64,000 nt of DNA, from positions 1,426,001 to 1,490,000 of the forward strand of contig JAKZZE010000010.1 in the NCBI GenBank assembly GCA_024220505.1. Direction: 5' to 3'. Origin of the DNA: Rhizopus arrhizus. Taxonomy: Eukaryota > Mucoromycota > Mucoromycetes > Mucorales > Rhizopodaceae. Below, one piece after another: positions 17,879 to 57,100 of this stretch (position 1 is its first letter; each line of letters starts with the position of its first letter). A program made the position numbers and the translations under genes. The notes beneath the pieces are model-generated. The model was given only the letters and a program-made list of their open reading frames with translations, was not told where the DNA came from and searched no databases.

Positions 17879-20853
17879 ATTGATTGTGTTATAAATATTG
17901 ATTCTTGTAATTGTGTTGTAAGTTGTTTTCTGTTTCAATCTACGTCGTTTCCTACGTGCTTTCCGTTGAACATATAAAAATAGGCCATTTTTTTAATTTT
18001 TAATCGACTTTTTTTTAAAAGATTCTTCTTTTTTTTTATATATATTAATTAAAGGGTGAGAGAAATATTGAATTAAAAGGTGGTAGCGTACATTTTGAAT
18101 AAATGGGTACACTAATAATAATAACAAAGAATAGAAATAAAGGGTTTCAGGAAAATAATAGTTAAGCGTAGTAAAGAGTTACAAAAAAAAATAGGGGTGC
18201 TTTGCTTTTAATAAAAAAGTAGCAAAAAGGGTTATAAAAAAAAGAAAAAAGAAAAAATCTTGAGAAGAAAGAAAAAGAAGAAGAAAAAATTTTATGGGTT
18301 TATTTATTGTTTGGGCGTATCGATGTTTGAAAACAATATAAGCGGAGTCTCGCCGAGTAACACCTATGGGAAGCTTGTTATTAATCTATTGGAACAAAAT
18401 CTTAATGTTTTAATCCCTGAACCTTGTCTTTATGTCTATTTGTACATGAAACATGACAAGAGGGATTTATGATATCATTTATGTTACTACGGTTACTGTA
18501 ACTTGGCAACAATTTTCATTAAAAGGAATAAAAAAAAGAAGTAAATAACTTGTATTACTCATTTCCTTATCGAACCAATCAAATACATTTATATCAACTG
18601 TACTAACAATTGGTGAACAAACCAGCCGTGTATTTTATCCTCAGGCTGAAACTGAGAGAGAAAAAAGATAAAGACAAAATGAAAAAGACTGTTACAACTT
18701 AACACTTTAAAAAAGAAAGAAAGAAAAAAGAAAAAGAGAAAGGTTAATAAGGCAGAGTATTAAATCAGTCAAGTTTTACGCAAAAAAGGGAAAGCTATTA
18801 ACTTGTTTCTTTTTATATGAAAATCAAAAAATGATAACGAGATTGATGATCTTTTTAAAGCAAGATGATGATAATCTTGTTTGATTTTCCCAAAAAAGAT
18901 TAAGCTCCGTTACAGGATTTTGCTGGAAAAATAAACTAGTCAAATACATAAGCCATACGCAGTAAATATTGATTGGATCAATAAAAGTCTTAATTCACAG
19001 TTGTGTTTAATTGCTAATGATTTGAAAAGTGATTCAAAGCACCAAACAAGACAAAAATCAAAAGAAGCACATAGCTTTTATACCAAAAAAGGAAATCGAC
19101 ATAGCGTCTTTTTTTTTAGGCAGCTTGTCGTCATAATATTACTACTCAAGGTTGTTTATACATTTGGTTCAAATCAGACTATTTGTTTTCAAAATATTCA
19201 AATTCAAAAGCTTCAGCAAAGAATATATACAAGATGCTCTATTTTTTCATGTCTTATAAGCTTCAATAGCTCATTTGTTAATTTAAAACTTTTTTTTTTT
19301 TTTTTTGCTGAATGTGGGGCTTGATCAAACATATTTCTTTTTTGATATCGTTGTAAGCATCTTTAAATTGCTTTACACACATAAGTCTTTTATTACATAC
19401 TGAAAAATTGTTTCTTTGTGACGTATTCGAATACTTAAAGTCGAATACATTGTCATGTAGAAATTTGTCTTCCACTTGAATATTTTCTGCTGGTATTAAC
19501 ATGCTAGTCCATGCATCACGGTACGTTTACATTAGAGTTAGATGTTATATGAATTTGTTACAAAACATTATTTATCATTTTTGGTTCATTGCAGTTAAAG
19601 ATTCATATTTTAAGTTGAAGCGTATATACTTTTATAAAGAAATAACTAGCAGGTTTGTTTTTTAAAGTCTGATATTGGTTCAATCATACTCTATTATACA
19701 CTGTTGCTTTTCATTTTTAATACAATTTAAATAATAATTGATATTGCATTAAATTTGCCAACTAGTATTATTCATTATAAGCAGTTATTAGATTGGCAGT
19801 CAATAGTTATAATGCTTTCTTTTTTTTTGAAGTTGGAATGTACATGTTTGAAGATAAGATACAGCAAGACGCATTAAAACTTTGTAGAAAGGTTTACAGT
19901 TAACAATAGGAAAATGATTTGAAGCTTACATGGATAAGAAGCAAGTCAAAATTCATAATGGTTCATTCTTGTTTGGTTTTTCAACTCGCAGCACCTTTAT
20001 CAACATACTTGGGTTTCACATAAAAGTGTAATATCTTTTTGCTTGGAATTAACCATCAATCAAAACTTCTTTTTTATCCTTTCTTATTGATATTTATAAG
20101 TAACCTTAATACACCAACATTAGTTTGGGCAAGCCTCATGCTTAAGGGCCATTGCGTTTTTGTTAGGTGCGAGTTTGGTACTCTATTCAAGTTCTCGTTA
20201 AATCAATTGCAAATGGTTTTTGATGAAACTTGACAAACCACATGTGACGCAATTGGCTTTATAAATAAAGACCAGCATGTTGCAAGCACATCAATCGAGT
20301 TCACATAATACCATATCAAAGGACAATCTTGTAATAATAGTATAAGAGTGAATTATAAAGTTTGTAATGATCACTTCGCTTGCTGAATAAACCAATCTTT
20401 TTTGTTTTATGTTTTCTTTTGCTACACAGCCTATCTTTTATATCAGTAGTAAAGAGGTTTAATCTTATTGTTACGTTGATCCTTTTTCATTATAAAAATA
20501 AATGTGTTTTATTAGTATTTAAAAAAAAGAATGCTCCTAAACACACATTTTATAATAAAGAATAGATAATCTTATTGACATGCTTAGCTTATTATTTCCT
20601 TGTTGGCAGAATTCTTAAGTCGTACATATGTATTTTTGGACCTCATTACTACCTCATTCTTAAAGAAAGTAGATAAAATAATAAAATACAATTTTTTTTC
20701 ACTTTTCTACCAAAGTATTCATTTGACAGAAAGTAAAAAAAAAAAATATGCGTGAATGGTAGAGTTTGCATAATAAATCTACTATGAACGATAAAAGATA
20801 TTGATTTATGATATAAAGCTCGACATGAGTTACACTATGAAAGCAACCTAATT
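17879..20853. other. long intergenic region, nothing recognised
   Basis: About 3 kb of AT-rich sequence upstream of the GATA gene and left of the Fanzor element. Only short random frames were seen. The last bases, next to 20854, are the left flank of the Fanzor element and the predicted source of a guide sequence. Confidence 0.4.
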
Positions 20854-20855
20854 TA

Positions 20856-20977
20856 TAGTGTTTTAATCTAAAATGAGACGATTTAATAAAATAAGTTAGA
20901 CGGCTTAAAAGATAAAAGAGACTAACGTCAGATTTTTTTGAGACAAGTGAGTAAAACAAATTAGACAATACAGGTTC
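20856..20977 (+). repeat. left terminal inverted repeat of the Fanzor element
   Basis: This is the reverse complement of 23590-23711 with about 87% identity. The outermost 18 bp are identical in both arms. It lies downstream of the Fanzor stop codon and so would be the 3' end of the Fanzor transcript. Confidence 0.9.
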
Positions 20978-21072
20978 TTTTTGTAGACACATGTTCAAAA
21001 AAATGTTGACGAGCAATCCCTTATATTATTGTTCAAAGACTTACACTATATCTGGGATTAATGCAGCGTTAA
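20856..21072 (-). ncRNA. candidate Fanzor guide (omega) RNA region
   Basis: In TnpB and Fanzor systems the guide RNA scaffold comes from the 3' end of the element and the guide from the DNA just outside it. Here that corresponds to the strip from the Fanzor stop through the left TIR, transcribed leftward, with the guide taken from the bases just below 20854. This is placement by analogy only. I did not find a convincing strong secondary structure by eye. Confidence 0.35.
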
Positions 21073-23291
21073 CTACAAAGGATTATTTTGTCTTTTCGTC
21101 GGTTGACTAGTACTAGCTGATGGTGATGACATATCCTTTCTTTTAGAGCCGGTGGAGAGAGGTTTTTTCGATCTGCAGAAACGTTCTGGTCTTTCACCAT
21201 TTGCACGCAGGCTAAAAAGGATTTGTCTAAAGTTTAACGTAGCAGCCATATCACGATTCCAAAGACGACGAAGAGGGGCTTTATCAGTAGTTTCTATTGT
21301 GCTCATCACAGCCTTTAAACATTGTTGGTTTTTGCACCTGAGCAGAAATTATGAAAGCTTGTTATTTTTTTTTACTTGCATATAAAAAGCACTTACCTTA
21401 AAAGGCCATGACGGTCTACAACGGGATACTTTTCTCTTTGATATGGTCTAGGATTCTGCACTTTTTTAAACGTTTCAAGTTCACCATTTTGGCAAGAAGG
21501 GCACAGACTAGAAGTCCGGAACTCGTCAAGGAGGTACACCTGGAAGCCTTCTTTGGCTAACATTCTTCTCATTCCGACACCTCTAATGGGTTCATGATAC
21601 TTTACCTTTCCTGCCGACCAATTACCAAGTATTAAGATAGAATCATTCCCAAACCTCTCTCTGAGCTTCTTGGCTAACCGTTTGTCTGCTTGTTGCTGAT
21701 TGATGAAACTTGAGAACTTCATTTTTCTAAAGGGTAAAAAACCACCGGCACCCTGATCTTCTGCTGCAGGGCGATCTTCATTTAAGTAGTACGCTTTCAT
21801 GACATGGGTGACTTTGGCTCTTTCTTGAAGATACTCAATAAACTTGTCTTTGTTGACAGTTGAAGATTTGAAATGCGACAGGGAAAGCTCGGCTGCAATC
21901 ACTTCGTCTCTCTTCAAGTTGTTCCTGAGCTTCCTGAATTTTCTAGATTTAGTTTCGATTGCTTTTTGGTTGCTTGTATATCGGTAAATCATTTTATTTT
22001 CAACAGTACTCTTTTCATGCATACAGTAAAGCAAGTCTCGACGGCCAGGATCAATTAATACACATTTGCCAACACCAGCCAGCAACTCTTCTTTTCCCAA
22101 CTTCTCAATGTACTGGAATTCTTCTGCTTTAATAGACTTTGGCTTTCCACCACTGCTGCCACCTTTCTTCATTGTATCGTAGCTTTGCTTTAACACCGAC
22201 ACACCTACGCCATCTGTGTATATCGTACCTCTAAACTTCATGATCCTTCTTTCTCCTTGTGGTTTCATCGCTTTTGATCTAACATCAAGAACGGCTCCCC
22301 ATACTACTTCTTTATCCAAGTGGCTGATGATGGAATTCTTCAAGATTTGAGTATTTAAAATATATGTATCAATCGTCATATACGATGGTATGAAGCCCTT
22401 TCTTAATGGAAAGCAATTGAATGATTTGTTTTGAAGCGCTTCGCACATGCTTGATAGTCTATAGTACGCTTTTATGTGCTTGAGAGGGTTAGCTTTGCAG
22501 TCGTAATAGATCGAGCCTTTCGCAAATCGATAATCCGTCGAATACGAGTCAAAAAGATTACGGATTTTATCTAAATCATTTGAGGAGAAAAACTCTTTGG
22601 GAACATCTTCAATGCTCCTTGACGATATAGCCAACTTGACCTTGCTTATCTGCTCTGTTATTGTCTTTATAGTTGCCACAATCTCCTTCTCTGTTCCCTC
22701 GTTTTTCTTCATCTCGCTTTTCAGCGCCTTGATTCTTTCGTTCTTCTTTAAGAGCAAGTTAAGAAACATTCGAACTTTGTTTCCGAATTGAACCTTGACC
22801 CCATTCAGATAAGCAGTGACGATCTTTATCATTTCATAAGAGGCTATCTGATGAGCATACTTCATATTAATTGGCTCGTACGAACAGCACTGAAAGTACT
22901 GGTGTCGATAGTTGAGTACTAGCCCTTTGTAAGTTCTTGATTTTGTCGAAGCTTTCTGCTTGTCTGGTTTGTAGTTTTTGAGGAGTGACAAAAAGACTTC
23001 TTTAAAAAAGTCAACATTAATGAAATCCTCCAAGGGAAACGCAGGGTTATTTTCCAGTTCATGAATAAAGATGTACTTCAAAAAGGAGAATGTATGTGAC
23101 ACAAGGGTATGAACATTAGCTACAAGCGTCTTGAGTAGCGGAATATATTGTGGCTTCCACCCAATACCAGCGATTGAACTTTTAACTGTTATGATTTTTA
23201 GAGGCGGTTCCATAAAGAAAAATAAAAGATAAATTGACAGTGTTTTTTTATTACTGTTGTCATTTGTGCTGTCATTGTCTTTTGACAACAT
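21073..23291 (-). CDS. Fanzor RNA-guided nuclease (eukaryotic TnpB homologue)
   Basis: Exon 1 is 21397-23291 and exon 2 is 21073-21337, with a 59-nt phase-2 intron. Together they encode 719 residues. The C-terminal half carries the TnpB/Fanzor RuvC signature: LIDPGRRDL (Asp414), VYLLDEFRTS (Glu590) and LWNRDMAATLN (Asp661). Between the last two is a zinc-ribbon-like set, CPSC (597, 600) and CKNQQC (633, 638). The conserved stretch NPRPYQ precedes the second cysteine pair. The intron falls between the two cysteine pairs. All catalytic and zinc positions are present, so the protein looks functional. Fanzors are RNA-guided DNA endonucleases using a guide RNA encoded beside the gene, which is known for the family and inferred here. 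The ATG at 23289-23291 is used; Met27 (MEPPLK) is an alternative start. The C-terminal tail is basic and Ser-rich, possibly a nuclear signal (SKRKD). Confidence 0.95.
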
Positions 23292-23589
23292 ATTGTCATT
23301 GATAGAATGGAGTTAGAACAATGAAACAATTCTATCTATAATCTTATACTATATGATATGATGAATAATGATCAAATAGTTCAGTGCTTCATAACATAAT
23401 GTCTCGATGATGAATTATAAACTCTGTCCCTCTTTGACATTATGAAGAAAGTGCTTATACTGTTGCCATTTCAGATACAGCACTACAAAGCTAATGATAT
23501 GTGTGCATACAGCCAGTTGCTCGATTACATTGCACTCCACAGTAAAAGGTGGAGAATGATAGTATGATAAAAAAAATCGTCTACAAAAG

Positions 23590-23711
23590 GAATCTGCATT
23601 GTCTAATTTGTTTTGTTTACTTGTCTCAAAAAAATTTGACGTTCGTCTCTTTTACCTTTTAAAGTGTTTAATTTATTTTATTAAATCGTTTTATTTTAGA
23701 TTAAAACACTA
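23590..23711 (+). repeat. right terminal inverted repeat of the Fanzor element
   Basis: This is the partner of the left arm. It ends in GATTAAAACACTA followed by TA. The next base belongs to LINE sequence. Confidence 0.9.
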
Positions 23712-23713
23712 TA

Positions 23714-24214
23714 TTATCCACTCGAGCCAATTTGCATAGAATCATCCCAGCAAAGGTAGATGACGACTATTGCCAATTGTACAAGCTACCAGAAACAGAG
23801 CAGCATATGCTCTTTACTTGTATTCAAAAGCAAGACTTGTGGAACGCAGCCTTCAAGAAATACTTGTCAAATCCTAAAGATCCCAACTGTAGCTCAATAT
23901 TCGAGGATTTATCCACACTTAGGTTATCCAAGTATTACATCTTACACTATCATGACAAGTTTACAATCTATGATTTTTTTTGCTACAGTCATTCGATTCA
24001 TTTGGAAAGCCCACTGGCAACAATTCTTTGAACAGACTCCTGTCGTGGATGAGATTGTCATCAATCAAATCCAGAAGGAGCTATTGAAACTATCTGCTTA
24101 CAATTCTCTATGCTAATTTCTTTTGTATTTTTATAAGTCACTGTTTAATACACTTGTATCGCTCTTAATCCTTATACTCTTTGATGAGTTTTAATAAACA
24201 TTAAAATTTTCATC

Positions 24215-24248
<34 letters not shown>
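23714..24248 (+). pseudogene. LINE 3' stub with poly(A) tail, abutting the Fanzor element
   Basis: The reading begins LSTRANLHRIIPAKV directly at the Fanzor TIR edge. It continues through the C-terminal LINE zinc-finger pattern (YCQLYKLPETEQHMLFTC) and then shifts frame at a run of eight T around 23980-23990. After the shift come RFIWKAHWQQFF and the C-terminal end at 24116. The A tract at 24218-24248 is the tail. The matching block in the stub at 37331-37948 reads KLPTRSRLHKIMP, so this copy is cut at a point where coding sequence should continue upstream. Confidence 0.85.
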
Positions 24249-53197: not shown

Positions 53198-54340
53198 CTA
53201 GAATAATCTTCTGTACCATGGGCGGGTACGTACCACATTTTCAGACTCTTCTTCACCAACCTTTGTATTGGATGTCGTACCTAATTCAATCCTTGTTGGC
53301 TCCGATTCGTCTTCCAATGTGGTACTGTTTTCAGCATTCGAAAAAATTGATTGTTGAATTCTCGTACTTCTGAGGTGTCTTCTTGGAGGTCTGTAGTAAA
53401 ACTTTTCAAACGTGTTTGAGTTTCGGCTCCAGTTTGCATGATCCTTGACTTGGTTAATAGAGGCTCCCAGCATCACTGCCTTTGTACTTGTTGCTGACCG
53501 CAACGAATGTGCTTTGTATCGTCTGTCTACTCCAGCTTTTTCCATAGCTGTTTGAATCCATTTACCGACCGTACTTGCTTGAACAGAAGTAGTTGGTTTG
53601 GCTTCTACCTCTAAATACCTCAAAAACAAGGTATGATCTACTGCTAAATGTTGTCTATGCTGCTTTGTCAATTCCATAAAACGAAACATAGTTCTTCTTC
53701 TTGGATCACTCCTAGTTGGATACTCTTGGTGTTGGTTTCTTTTGGCTGGCGAATATGCAACCAGACACTATCGGGAACGCCGTCTGTGTGCGTAAATTGA
53801 ACATCTCTCCATTGGATCCGGCCAACATCTGATCTCGGTCTCCACATTGTATTTATACACATCAACAAAATTACCTTTAGTTGTAATTGCCCCAAAGTCA
53901 GTATGTTTGAAGGTGATAATTCTTTCCGAATGTATAAAATTAAAATATTGATATCCCAAGTTTCAAGTTTGTCCACGGTAGGTATACGAACTTCCGTATC
54001 CTTTTTTGCTTTGAAAAACCTTGTGATTTCAGGCTGGGAAGCAAGAGATGGTTGATTTGGATGTAATTGTGAATATACCGATGCAATCGCTGAGCGGTAA
54101 TCATTCAACGTCTGAGCACTCAACCTGTTATGTTCCATTAAGAAACATAATACATTCGATACATTATACTCCTCTGGATTTTGAACTGGCATTTGCTTTT
54201 GACACCAATGAGAAAACTTCTTCCAAATTCCATTGTAAGCTCTGTGCGTATTGTAACGATTCGCCTTCAAGAAAAATTCTTGAGTACGTTTACTGATCCC
54301 ATCGGAAGTCCACTTGTTGCTGATAAGTGCCAAGCGGCTA
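53198..54340 (-). pseudogene. DIRS tyrosine recombinase, one frameshift
   Basis: The N-terminal part (TQEFFLKANRYNTHRAYNGI, then WCQKQMPVQNPEEYNVSNVL) overlaps the pol 3' end in another frame. It carries the first catalytic Arg in NTMWRPRSDVGRIQW. Around 53670-53690 the frame shifts by one: ELCFVLWN reaches a stop, while FRFMELTKQHRQHL continues in the next frame. The rest holds HSLRSAT (H-X-X-R), HANWSRNSN and FEKFYYRP (Tyr), completing the R/HXXR/H/Y set. The final residues are encoded by the internal complementary region. Recombinases of this family integrate the circular DIRS intermediate. Confidence 0.88.
53267..53326 (-). repeat. DIRS internal complementary region
   Basis: These 60 bp repeat the outermost 60 bp of the terminal repeat (52990-53049). 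They lie inside the 3' coding end of the recombinase. In DIRS elements this segment templates joining of the ends into a circle. Confidence 0.88.
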
Positions 54341-56205
54341 CTGTCCAGTTCTTTCTTATCTTGAATATCAACGGTAGTTGCCGATGTTTCATTTGTAATA
54401 ACGTCGGAAACCAGTATTGGGTCGGCCACCACGGTGTGACCAATACTACTTCCTTCAACTTCATCGACCGAATTTGTCGTAAAACCTTCGGTATCAGTTG
54501 CCATGGTGGAAACAGGTACAAACCCTTCTTGGGCCAGACTTGGCGAAAAGCATCCACTGCTTTGGCTTCTGGGTCTTCCCGATAACTCCAAAACGTCTTG
54601 AGTCTGGTATTGTGGCGAGCTGCAAAGCCGTCTATCCTCAAAGGACCCATCTTCTGATTTATTACCTGGAACCACTTCTTGGGCATCGTTGCTTCGTATA
54701 GAGGATTGGACGCCTTTATTCGACTTAGTGTATCTGCTTTGACATTTAAAATTCCTGGTATATGGCTGTATGTTACCGTCAAGTTGTATGAGTTGATCAC
54801 TTCCTGGATCTCGATCGCTAATTCTTGAAGAAGTGGTGAAGCTGTCCCTCCTGCCTTGGTCGAATATTTCAGTGCTGTTATATTGTCTGTGAATACTTGA
54901 ATATTTTTCTCTCGAAATTTTTCTGCGTGCAGTTTCAGAGCAAACAGGATTGTCTTGAGTTCTCTTACATTGATCGAAGTGGTCTTTTCCTCGTTCGTCC
55001 ATTGTCCAGAGATTTCCATTTCGTGGGAGCTTACTCCCCATCCCAAATCTGAAGCGTCGCAATGGATTGTCAAGTCCGGGTTTCTTTCTTCTGGTTTTTG
55101 TATATCTAACCCGTTTCTGGTTGATGCAAAATCTTTCCACCATCTTAATTCTTCTTGGCTTTCGTGGGATAAATGACAAGGAGCTTCCCAGTTTTGATGA
55201 TGTAGGTGTAATGATTTTGCTAGATCTCTTTGCATGTATCTTAGGTGTAGTAATGCTTCCCCTATTGCTGGGATCATCGCCGTCATCTTCCCCACTAGAC
55301 TCGCTATCCATCTGCATGATCGTTGTTGAAGAGGATGGTTCAATATTTGCTTCAGTCTCATCATCAATTTCTGTAATTTCTGCGCAGGAACCGAAATTAA
55401 CATCTTCTTGGTGTTGAAAACAAAGCCAAGGAATTCTTGGGCATGGTTGGGGATGAGAACACTTTTCTACCAGTTGATGAGAAAACCTAGTTTGGTCAAA
55501 TGTTTTATAATCAATTGCGTTACTTGAGTCATTCTCTCGCTGGTTTTTTCCAAAACACAAATGTCGTCCAAATAATACACAAATCTGATCCCTTTCCTTC
55601 ATAATGGTTCTAATGCATAACGCATTATCTTGGTGAAAACTCTGGGGGCAACGCTGAGGCCAAACGCCATTGACTTGTACTGATAAACTACTCCCTGGTG
55701 TTTGAAGGTTAAATATTGTTGGGATGCTGGGTGTATTGGCACTACTACATATGCATCCTTGAGATCCAGTTTGCACATCAGGTCGTCTTTCTCTATGATC
55801 TGCCTTAGAGCTGGAACACCTTCCATCTTGAAGTGTTGATATTGTAAGAAGCGGTTGAGTTGGGAACAATCTAGAATCGGTCTTCTCTTCGTTGGTTCCT
55901 GGATCGTAAAGAAGTTGGACAGATAGCTCTCGCTTTGAGTCGGCGAGACTTCTATAATCCCGGCTGTCAAGAATTTTTCTATTGCTAAAGTGATTGCTTC
56001 TTGGTCCAATGATGATAATCTCATTGGTTTTATCTTCCATGGAGATGGCTGTGATCGGAATTGGAGACGATAGCCTTCTGCTATCACTGACAATGGCCAT
56101 TTGTGATGTACTGACCTCTCCCATTGATGATAAAACTTCTGTAACCTTCCTCCTGGAAGGATCCCATCTTCTGGCGTGGTGTAGTGCGCTGTTATTTTTA
56201 TTGGT
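54267..56205 (-). pseudogene. DIRS reverse transcriptase-RNase H, two nonsense codons
   Basis: The frame begins at the end of Gag without its own ATG (ITAHYTTPEDGILPGGRLQK, then FYHQWERSVHHKWPLSVI). RT motifs follow: PILDCSQLNRFLQY, LDLKDAYVVVPIHP, FGLSVAPRVFTKIM and YYLDDICVL (catalytic Asp pair). TGA at 55599-55601 and TAG at 55467-55469 interrupt the same frame just before and after the YLDD block. RNase H follows with TIHCDASDLGWG, NVRELKTIL, VFTDNITALKYS and GILNVKADTLSR. The C-terminal WSYREDPEAKAVDAFRQVW and APWWPTQ-like block is usual in DIRS pol proteins. Apart from the stops it is well preserved. Confidence 0.9.
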
Positions 56206-57100
56206 TGTTGTTGTTGTTGGTGGATGTTGAGAAGTTTTGATTGTTGCTGTTGTTGTTGTTGTTTGTCGTGGGCGAGTTGAAGAATCCTCTTCCCCGGCCT
56301 CTCCCAAAAAAAGGTTTTTGAGAAAAATTGTTTCCAAAACCTCTTCCTCTGAACTGCGCTCTTCCTCTATTACCCCATCCATTGGAGAAACCTCTTGGCT
56401 GGTTGGAGGTGGCGTTGCGCAGGATAGAGCTTTCGTATCTTGCTTGATGGATCTTCTCCACATCTTGAGTGGAGAAGACCATCCTCTTGGTGTCATCTTC
56501 CACATGTTGGTCTTCCAGGTGTTTTGCATGTTGTGGGAGGCGAAGAGCTGTAAGGGTAAGTTCTTTTGCCTCTCTGTCAATCTCTTGGCTTGTAGCGAAG
56601 CTGAAGATGGATAACCGTCTAACCTTTTCCATAACCTGGAGGAATGTTTCTTGGTCTCCGGATTCCATGTAGGCACCGAGACCTTCGAATATCTCGGCTG
56701 CTGATCTACCCACAATCCTGAGTTTGTCTGAATCTTCGTATCTACTTGAGATGACTTGTTTTGCCTCCACTTGGTACCTTTTAAGGTCTGCCATGAACGA
56801 TTTGTTGATAACTGGGGTCTTTGTCCAGTCTCCCGCGACGTATCTCTGTGTGTCTCTGACAAATCGTTTGGAATTGGATTGTAACTCATTTCGAGACGAT
56901 GAGTTGAGCTCGTCCCATATTTCTTCTGGGAGTTCCATGATTTCGTTTCTTCTTGTTGAAGCGTCTTGATTTAGGTGTTCTGCCTGATATCTTTGGGCAA
57001 ACTGCTGATAAAGGGCTTCTTGTTGTTCCTCCGTGAGGGTAAAGGTTGCATTGGAGTCCACATTATTATTGTTATTATAGTCACTATTAGAAACTGACAT
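56198..57100 (-). CDS. DIRS Gag-like protein
   Basis: An open frame of 300 residues from ATG 57098-57100. It has an Asn-rich start (NSDYNNNNN) and a helical middle region (EEQQEALYQQFAQRYQAE). The C-terminus is Arg/Gly-rich (NRGRAQFRGRGFGNNF, GRGRGRGFF), suited to RNA binding, and ends in Asn/Gln repeats. A longer frame starts only with GTG at 57112. Its position at the 5' end of the element and its RGG tail fit a DIRS Gag. The stop at 56198-56200 lies in a CAA/AAC repeat, where the reverse-transcriptase frame takes over. Confidence 0.85.
   Translation of the reverse strand: MSVSNSDYNNNNNVDSNATFTLTEEQQEALYQQFAQRYQAEHLNQDASTRRNEIMELPEEIWDELNSSSRNELQSNSKRFVRDTQRYVAGDWTKTPVINKSFMADLKRYQVEAKQVISSRYEDSDKLRIVGRSAAEIFEGLGAYMESGDQETFLQVMEKVRRLSIFSFATSQEIDREAKELTLTALRLPQHAKHLEDQHVEDDTKRMVFSTQDVEKIHQARYESSILRNATSNQPRGFSNGWGNRGRAQFRGRGFGNNFSQKPFFGRGRGRGFFNSPTTNNNNNSNNQNFSTSTNNNNNQ

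Follow-up and report, generated by a model that had tools for sequence, protein, structure and literature searches.

Does the Fanzor-like gene on contig JAKZZE010000010.1 of Rhizopus arrhizus (assembly GCA_024220505.1) encode an intact nuclease, and how is such a gene carried and spread in this genome? The stretch analyzed here, positions 1,426,001 to 1,490,000 of the contig (64,000 nucleotides, hereafter the window), holds the gene on its minus strand within a 2,860-bp element bounded by inverted repeats. Related sequences occur at nine genomic places, the window included, at 98-100% identity (young copies) and at many others at 82-91% (old copies); the family has multiplied recently in this genome. 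With a probability of about 0.8, we read the locus as an intact Fanzor1 gene in a non-autonomous element with Tc1/mariner-like ends, for which we infer a guide RNA, target cutting, homing and transposition in trans. Fanzors are already well described (PMC3627910, PMC10432273, PMC10711439, PMC11423790; all cited from the portions of the text available). Four Fanzor1 families were listed for Rhizopus oryzae RA 99-880 in 2013, and the genus Rhizopus is thus already on record as a carrier.

Identity and structure of the gene

Solved Fanzor1 nucleases give the best matches, both in sequence and in predicted fold, the latter run on the 577-aa database protein P0001. This agrees with the original prediction of a Fanzor, and no unrelated family gave a best match. 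All three RuvC acids (D414, E590 and D661, in the numbering of a 719-aa translation) and both cysteine pairs (C597-x2-C600 and C633-x4-C638) are present in Fanzor order, as had been claimed, and the positions of the acids are conserved in the alignment to solved Fanzors, through which the predicted clustering of the three acids is supported. Database searches returned 77 proteins at E <= 0.001. Where named, these belong mostly to Rhizopus and other genera of the Mucorales, with a few from Syncephalis and Coemansia, and the best match is named for R. arrhizus. The published Fanzor1 motif, D-X(125,275)-[TS][TS]-X-X-[C4 finger]-X(5,50)-RD (PMC3627910), is found as D414, T593-S594, C597/C600/C633/C638 and R660-D661, with 178 residues between D414 and T593 and 21 between C638 and R660, counted on the 719-aa translation. 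A TDG motif, which is a feature of the WED domain in Fanzor1 (PMC10711439), lies at T359-D360-G361; D360 and G361 are invariant in the alignment with database relatives. Judged by its sequence, the gene is a real, intact Fanzor1 and an ordinary member of a known family.

The gene consists of one long frame (23291..21073, minus strand) split by a single 59-nt GT..AG intron at 21338..21396, between ..HGLLR and CKNQQC.. in the translation. Exon 1 spans 23291..21397 from an upstream ATG (M1) or 21397..23213 from a second one (M27), in either case holding D414, E590 and C597/C600; exon 2 (21073..21337, including the stop) holds the second cysteine pair and D661. The intron had been predicted, and P0001 carries the same spliced C-terminus (100% identity as listed, one residue differing by eye); this protein lacks the N-terminal 142 residues of the 719-aa frame. 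The intron is 95-97% identical to those of five old copies (L010-L013, L019), compared with 88-90% for exon 2; for so short a stretch with some indels, this may reflect chance or splicing constraint.

The complete gene of the original prediction stands with respect to its frame, splice and translation, but its length was most likely overstated. Splicing from M1 yields 719 aa and from M27 (23213..21073) 693 aa. The start codon is most likely M27, in which case the catalytic residues become D388, E564 and D635 and the 26-residue stretch encoded by 23214..23291 is most likely an untranslated leader. This start is favored because the relatives P0007 and P0010 begin (MEPLLKI/MEPPLKI) at residue 27 of the window frame, because the alignment of PpFz1, the Fanzor1 of Parasitella parasitica, begins at residue 29, and because six of the seven young copies with an M1 (L002-L007) have it in another frame than M27. 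The window copy is the sole young one in which M1 comes into frame, owing to an extra A; L008 has no ATG at M1 and L009 lacks the whole region. The old copies speak in part for M1, which is in frame with M27 in two of five (L012, L013); it is out of frame in L010 and L019, and L011 has no ATG there.

Element ends and probable mobilization

The element occupies 20854..23713. Its terminal inverted repeats, 135 nt each and 88% complementary, lie at 23579..23713, the 5' end of the gene, and at 20854..20988, the 3' end; we call the latter the guide end, as a candidate omega-RNA scaffold would lie in or next to it. The Fanzor gene is the only long frame, with no other of at least 250 aa. Only one other frame of at least 80 aa overlaps the element, a 105-aa one at 20699-21016 that extends outside it, and no transposase is coded in 20854-23713 among frames of this size. 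On the evidence of these frames, the element is therefore non-autonomous at most.

Its ends may point to an external source of transposase. Old copies with both ends start with TACAGTG or TACTGTG and finish with CACTGTA or CATTGTA, and TA stands at both ends in L010, L011 and L019 (start TACTG or TACAG, finish CATTGTA or CACTGTA). The outer 28 nt of the repeat have 57 genomic matches at <=3 mismatches, Fanzor copies included, and none in the reversed reading; some of the matches outside Fanzor copies adjoin DDE_3 transposase frames. Three Tc1/mariner-type elements of the same genome (L043-L045) resemble it in the terminal TA and, over the outer 28 nt only, in the repeat, where they are 4-5 mismatches away from the TACAGTG form; they differ in encoding a DDE_3 transposase and in their inner repeat sequence. 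In L043, a stop-to-stop frame of 456 aa matches PF13358 (E 1.6e-25); this copy has a single repeat end, with 4 of 28 positions departing from the TACAGTG form, and lacks the second. A Tc1/mariner-type transposase acting in trans likely mobilizes the element.

Putative guide RNA and predicted target motif

In the mechanism that we propose, the protein would most likely bind an omega-RNA read from the 3' end of the element, and the DNA flank just past that end would supply the guide. By the family rule (PMC10432273), the omega-RNA should end at 20854 and then run into the flank, which makes 20834..20853 (minus strand) the putative guide. This flank has an exact genome match only at its own locus, and the corresponding flanks differ among the nine young copies. 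The target duplication is reported to be incorporated into the RNA scaffold (PMC10711439), in keeping with a guide that begins immediately behind the TA. The omega-RNA of PpFz1 is 75 nt long (PMC11423790).

A motif is observed on the opposite flank. Of 12 independent insertions read in gene orientation, 8, mostly old copies, have TTTA directly before the TA of the 5' repeat (L007, L010, L011, L013, L015, L016, L017, L019). The motif is found at 3 of 17 guide-side ends (L004, L021, L079), at none of 28 control repeat ends (0/24 among those starting with TA), and before 1.5% of the 8,927 TA contexts on both strands of the window outside the element. By Fisher's test, the 5' side differs from the guide side at p = 0.018 and from the controls, which mix several element families, at 6e-6. 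For the 5' count, a LINE-derived junction common to the window copy, L002, L003, L004, L006 and L008 was omitted (LINE, long interspersed nuclear element), as were L020, a repeat of L019, and matches with 6 mismatches; L007 was assigned by eye (ctttttaTAACAGC), and the count is 7/11 without it. The guide count comprises 16 tabulated ends and L079. It leaves aside L003 (shortened), L030 and L080 (which repeat L029) and L081 (acataa/ATTAG, probably a guide-side end), the start of which is not TA. Among the controls, L064, L066, L067 and L075 start without TA, and L078 and L046 represent one common flank; L059, L060 and L061 yielded no row at the 5-mismatch limit, and L079-L082 were excluded as Fanzor-family relics.

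The DNA signal read by the enzyme can be predicted from these flanks. In SPu-1, the element of the Fanzor SpuFz1, the 5' repeat is preceded by CA and the target-adjacent motif (TAM) is CATA (PMC10432273), and the TAM of PpFz1 is ATN (PMC11423790). Because of the TTTA bias on the 5' side, the anatomy of SPu-1 and the PpFz1 motif with which it agrees, we predict a TAM ending in ATA, with TTTATA as the favored form. The ribonucleoprotein would cut a matching site without the element if preceded by such a motif, repair from a filled copy would keep or spread the element, and transposition itself would be left to a transposase in trans.

The alternative that fares best, although we consider it rather unlikely, is that TTTA is a target preference of the transposase and that Fanzor reads something looser. 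The three guide-side ends with TTTA would then be insertions in reversed orientation. However, the motif is absent from the 28 related repeat ends outside Fanzor copies, and a TA-targeting transposase acting on near-identical ends should favor neither orientation, in contrast to the bias observed.

Several results weigh against the reading as a nuclease guided from its own 3' end and moved in trans. At the RNA level, folds of 75-150 nt at the 3' end are no better than those of shuffled sequences (z -0.84 to 0.55, a test weakened by the AT-rich repeat), and no Rfam match was found. Nor is there extra conservation of the 3' repeat, which is 77-89% identical to old copies, compared with 88-92% for the exons. 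The contrast between the two flanks is modest, and the young copies fit the motif poorly: L007 fits, L005 has TTTAA before the TA, and the junction common to six of them is LINE-derived (GGATAA). With regard to transposition, the genome yielded no element that is complete, encodes a transposase and has this 135-bp repeat, L043 being one-ended, and neither empty sites nor insertion polymorphisms were observed.

Spread of the young copies

The young copies show how the family may have spread most recently. Six of them (window, L002, L003, L004, L006, L008) carry the same 489-504 nt LINE tail, outside the 5' repeat only. In the window, this is a 5'-truncated LINE 3' tail on the plus strand (23714-24217) with a 31-nt poly(A) at 24218-24248 (23714..24248 in all). 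The tail ends in poly(A) of differing length in the window, L002 and L003; L005 has no tail. The guide-side flanks of the six tailed copies all differ and start at the repeat end, which is complete in eight of the nine young copies and lacks 5 nt in L003. The LINE belongs to a family of its own (259 first-look candidates, 40 scored). Part of this pattern could be due to recombination between copies, part to composite transposition and part to retrotransposition. In the available parts of the literature on Fanzor in Rhizopus or with Mucor retrotransposons, we met no description of the flank motif or of such one-sided copies.

One explanation is that LINE enzymes retrotransposed an antisense transcript, so that the young copies spread as a block with the LINE tail rather than as the 2.86-kb element alone. 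This would suit the window, L002 and L003, which have in common the element, the tail and a poly(A) right end of varied length with different left flanks; the antisense direction would retain the intron, and an ordinary copy of the same LINE (L037) shows a 15-bp duplication. We nevertheless think it improbable: no target duplication surrounds the three poly(A)-ended blocks, where the longest words in common hardly differ in length from those of shuffled sequences, L004, L006 and L008 run on into other repeated sequence without a poly(A) end, and L005 is without the tail. More speculative still, and to us a long shot, is that the young burst was not ordinary cut-and-paste and that copying started at the omega-RNA end, perhaps after cuts by Fanzor or the LINE, spreading the gene together with foreign DNA; the guide-end anchoring and the variable extension past the other end into LINE tail or repeats lead to this idea.

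Among the nine young copies, seven retain an intact frame (window, L002, L003, L005, L006, L007, L008); the frame of L004 is interrupted by a stop at codon 532, and L009 is a truncated copy. The original prediction held intact homologues with a host-style intron to be few. This rarity was overstated, given the seven intact frames and a second Fanzor1 family in this genome, the long frames of which end at the same intron position. The ratio of nonsynonymous to synonymous change (dN/dS) is 0.13-0.52 between the window and the young copies, based on few changes, and 0.49-0.64 among old copies. With five window-to-old comparisons at 0.40-0.43, such values would be expected of a coding sequence that is under selection from one burst to the next and decays once a burst is over. 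That the gene is an inert passenger, with a transposase in trans moving the copies and the nuclease doing nothing, would accord with the many stops in all five old copies examined and with an activity that is here deduced from sequence, but is quite unlikely in view of the intact young frames, the dN/dS values and the conserved catalytic residues.

Some further rearrangements were noted. L007 is a mosaic: all parts between the start of exon 1 and the guide end are 99.6-100% identical to those of the window, the 5' repeat and leader 89-92%, which suggests exchange between copies; it adjoins a LINE stretch of 88% identity. At L046 (G000 C4:53300-53700), a LINE tail and poly(A) are fused directly to a mariner-type repeat end (TACAGTATTTCAG..). 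A genome search also recovered four places (G000 C23:1605933-1606227, 1616262-1616556, 1658913-1659207 and 1665435-1665729) at which ~41-45 nt of the element repeat adjoin a 251-nt piece of exon 1, with the orientation alternating from place to place; two of these (L029, L030) have one flank in common, and a third starts with the same CACAGTG. Elsewhere in the window, a 402-aa open frame with a zf-RVT domain at 910-2118 represents a second retroelement relic, and a 1100-aa stop-to-stop frame at 53668-56970 (minus strand) has no Pfam match.

Comparison with known systems

The biological role of Fanzors is described as open (PMC10432273). This genome offers a natural test bed: its nine near-identical copies, of which seven are intact, all differ in their guide flanks, and they occur beside decayed old copies and a sister family that has a cyclophilin-binding insertion. 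It yields a TAM prediction, sets relatives of a solved enzyme with the insertion apart from those without it and permits strain comparison for homing, and its copies hint at both the signal read by the enzyme and the mode of spread.

Bacterial TnpB proteins (PDB 8h1j, 8iaz) are much smaller chains and gave no sequence match to the window protein. SPu-1 (PMC3627910, PMC10432273) is more similar in its organization: a lone Fanzor gene between inverted repeats, no transposase, a putative duplication of TA and, ahead of the 5' repeat, a conserved motif. It differs in its repeats (33 bp or 30 nt in the two papers, compared with 135 bp here), in its single uninterrupted frame and in its TAM CATA; SpuFz1 shares 29-30% identity with the window-type protein in the structural match.

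The closest solved protein is PpFz1 (PDB 9cf0-9cf3; PMC11423790), which aligns over nearly its full length and agrees with the window protein in its RuvC acids, its cysteine pairs and its TDG motif. Unlike the window protein, it has a ~100-aa RuvC insertion (FRI) that binds cyclophilin; ~105 residues of the PpFz1 chain stand there against ~10 of the window protein, a short linker at residues ~507-517. The second Fanzor1 family (L053-L055, at G000 C41:94800-99300, C40:1222800-1227500 and C37:1552500-1556900) comprises stop-to-stop frames of 748-838 aa that are ~95% mutually identical; no inverted repeats were seen around them in the sequence compared, which does not reach the 5' border. Because their exon 1 ends at the same codon (..GLLR) with the intron in the same phase, the intron is most likely older than the split of the two families. 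The match of L055 to PpFz1 scores 1065 bits and continues directly across the FRI, compared with 554 bits for the window protein; by this alignment, L055 has the FRI and is closer to PpFz1 than the window protein is. While the FRI is reported only in Parasitella and Rhizopus in the available text of PMC11423790, these sequence comparisons show that Rhizopus-type genomes hold insertion-less relatives as well.
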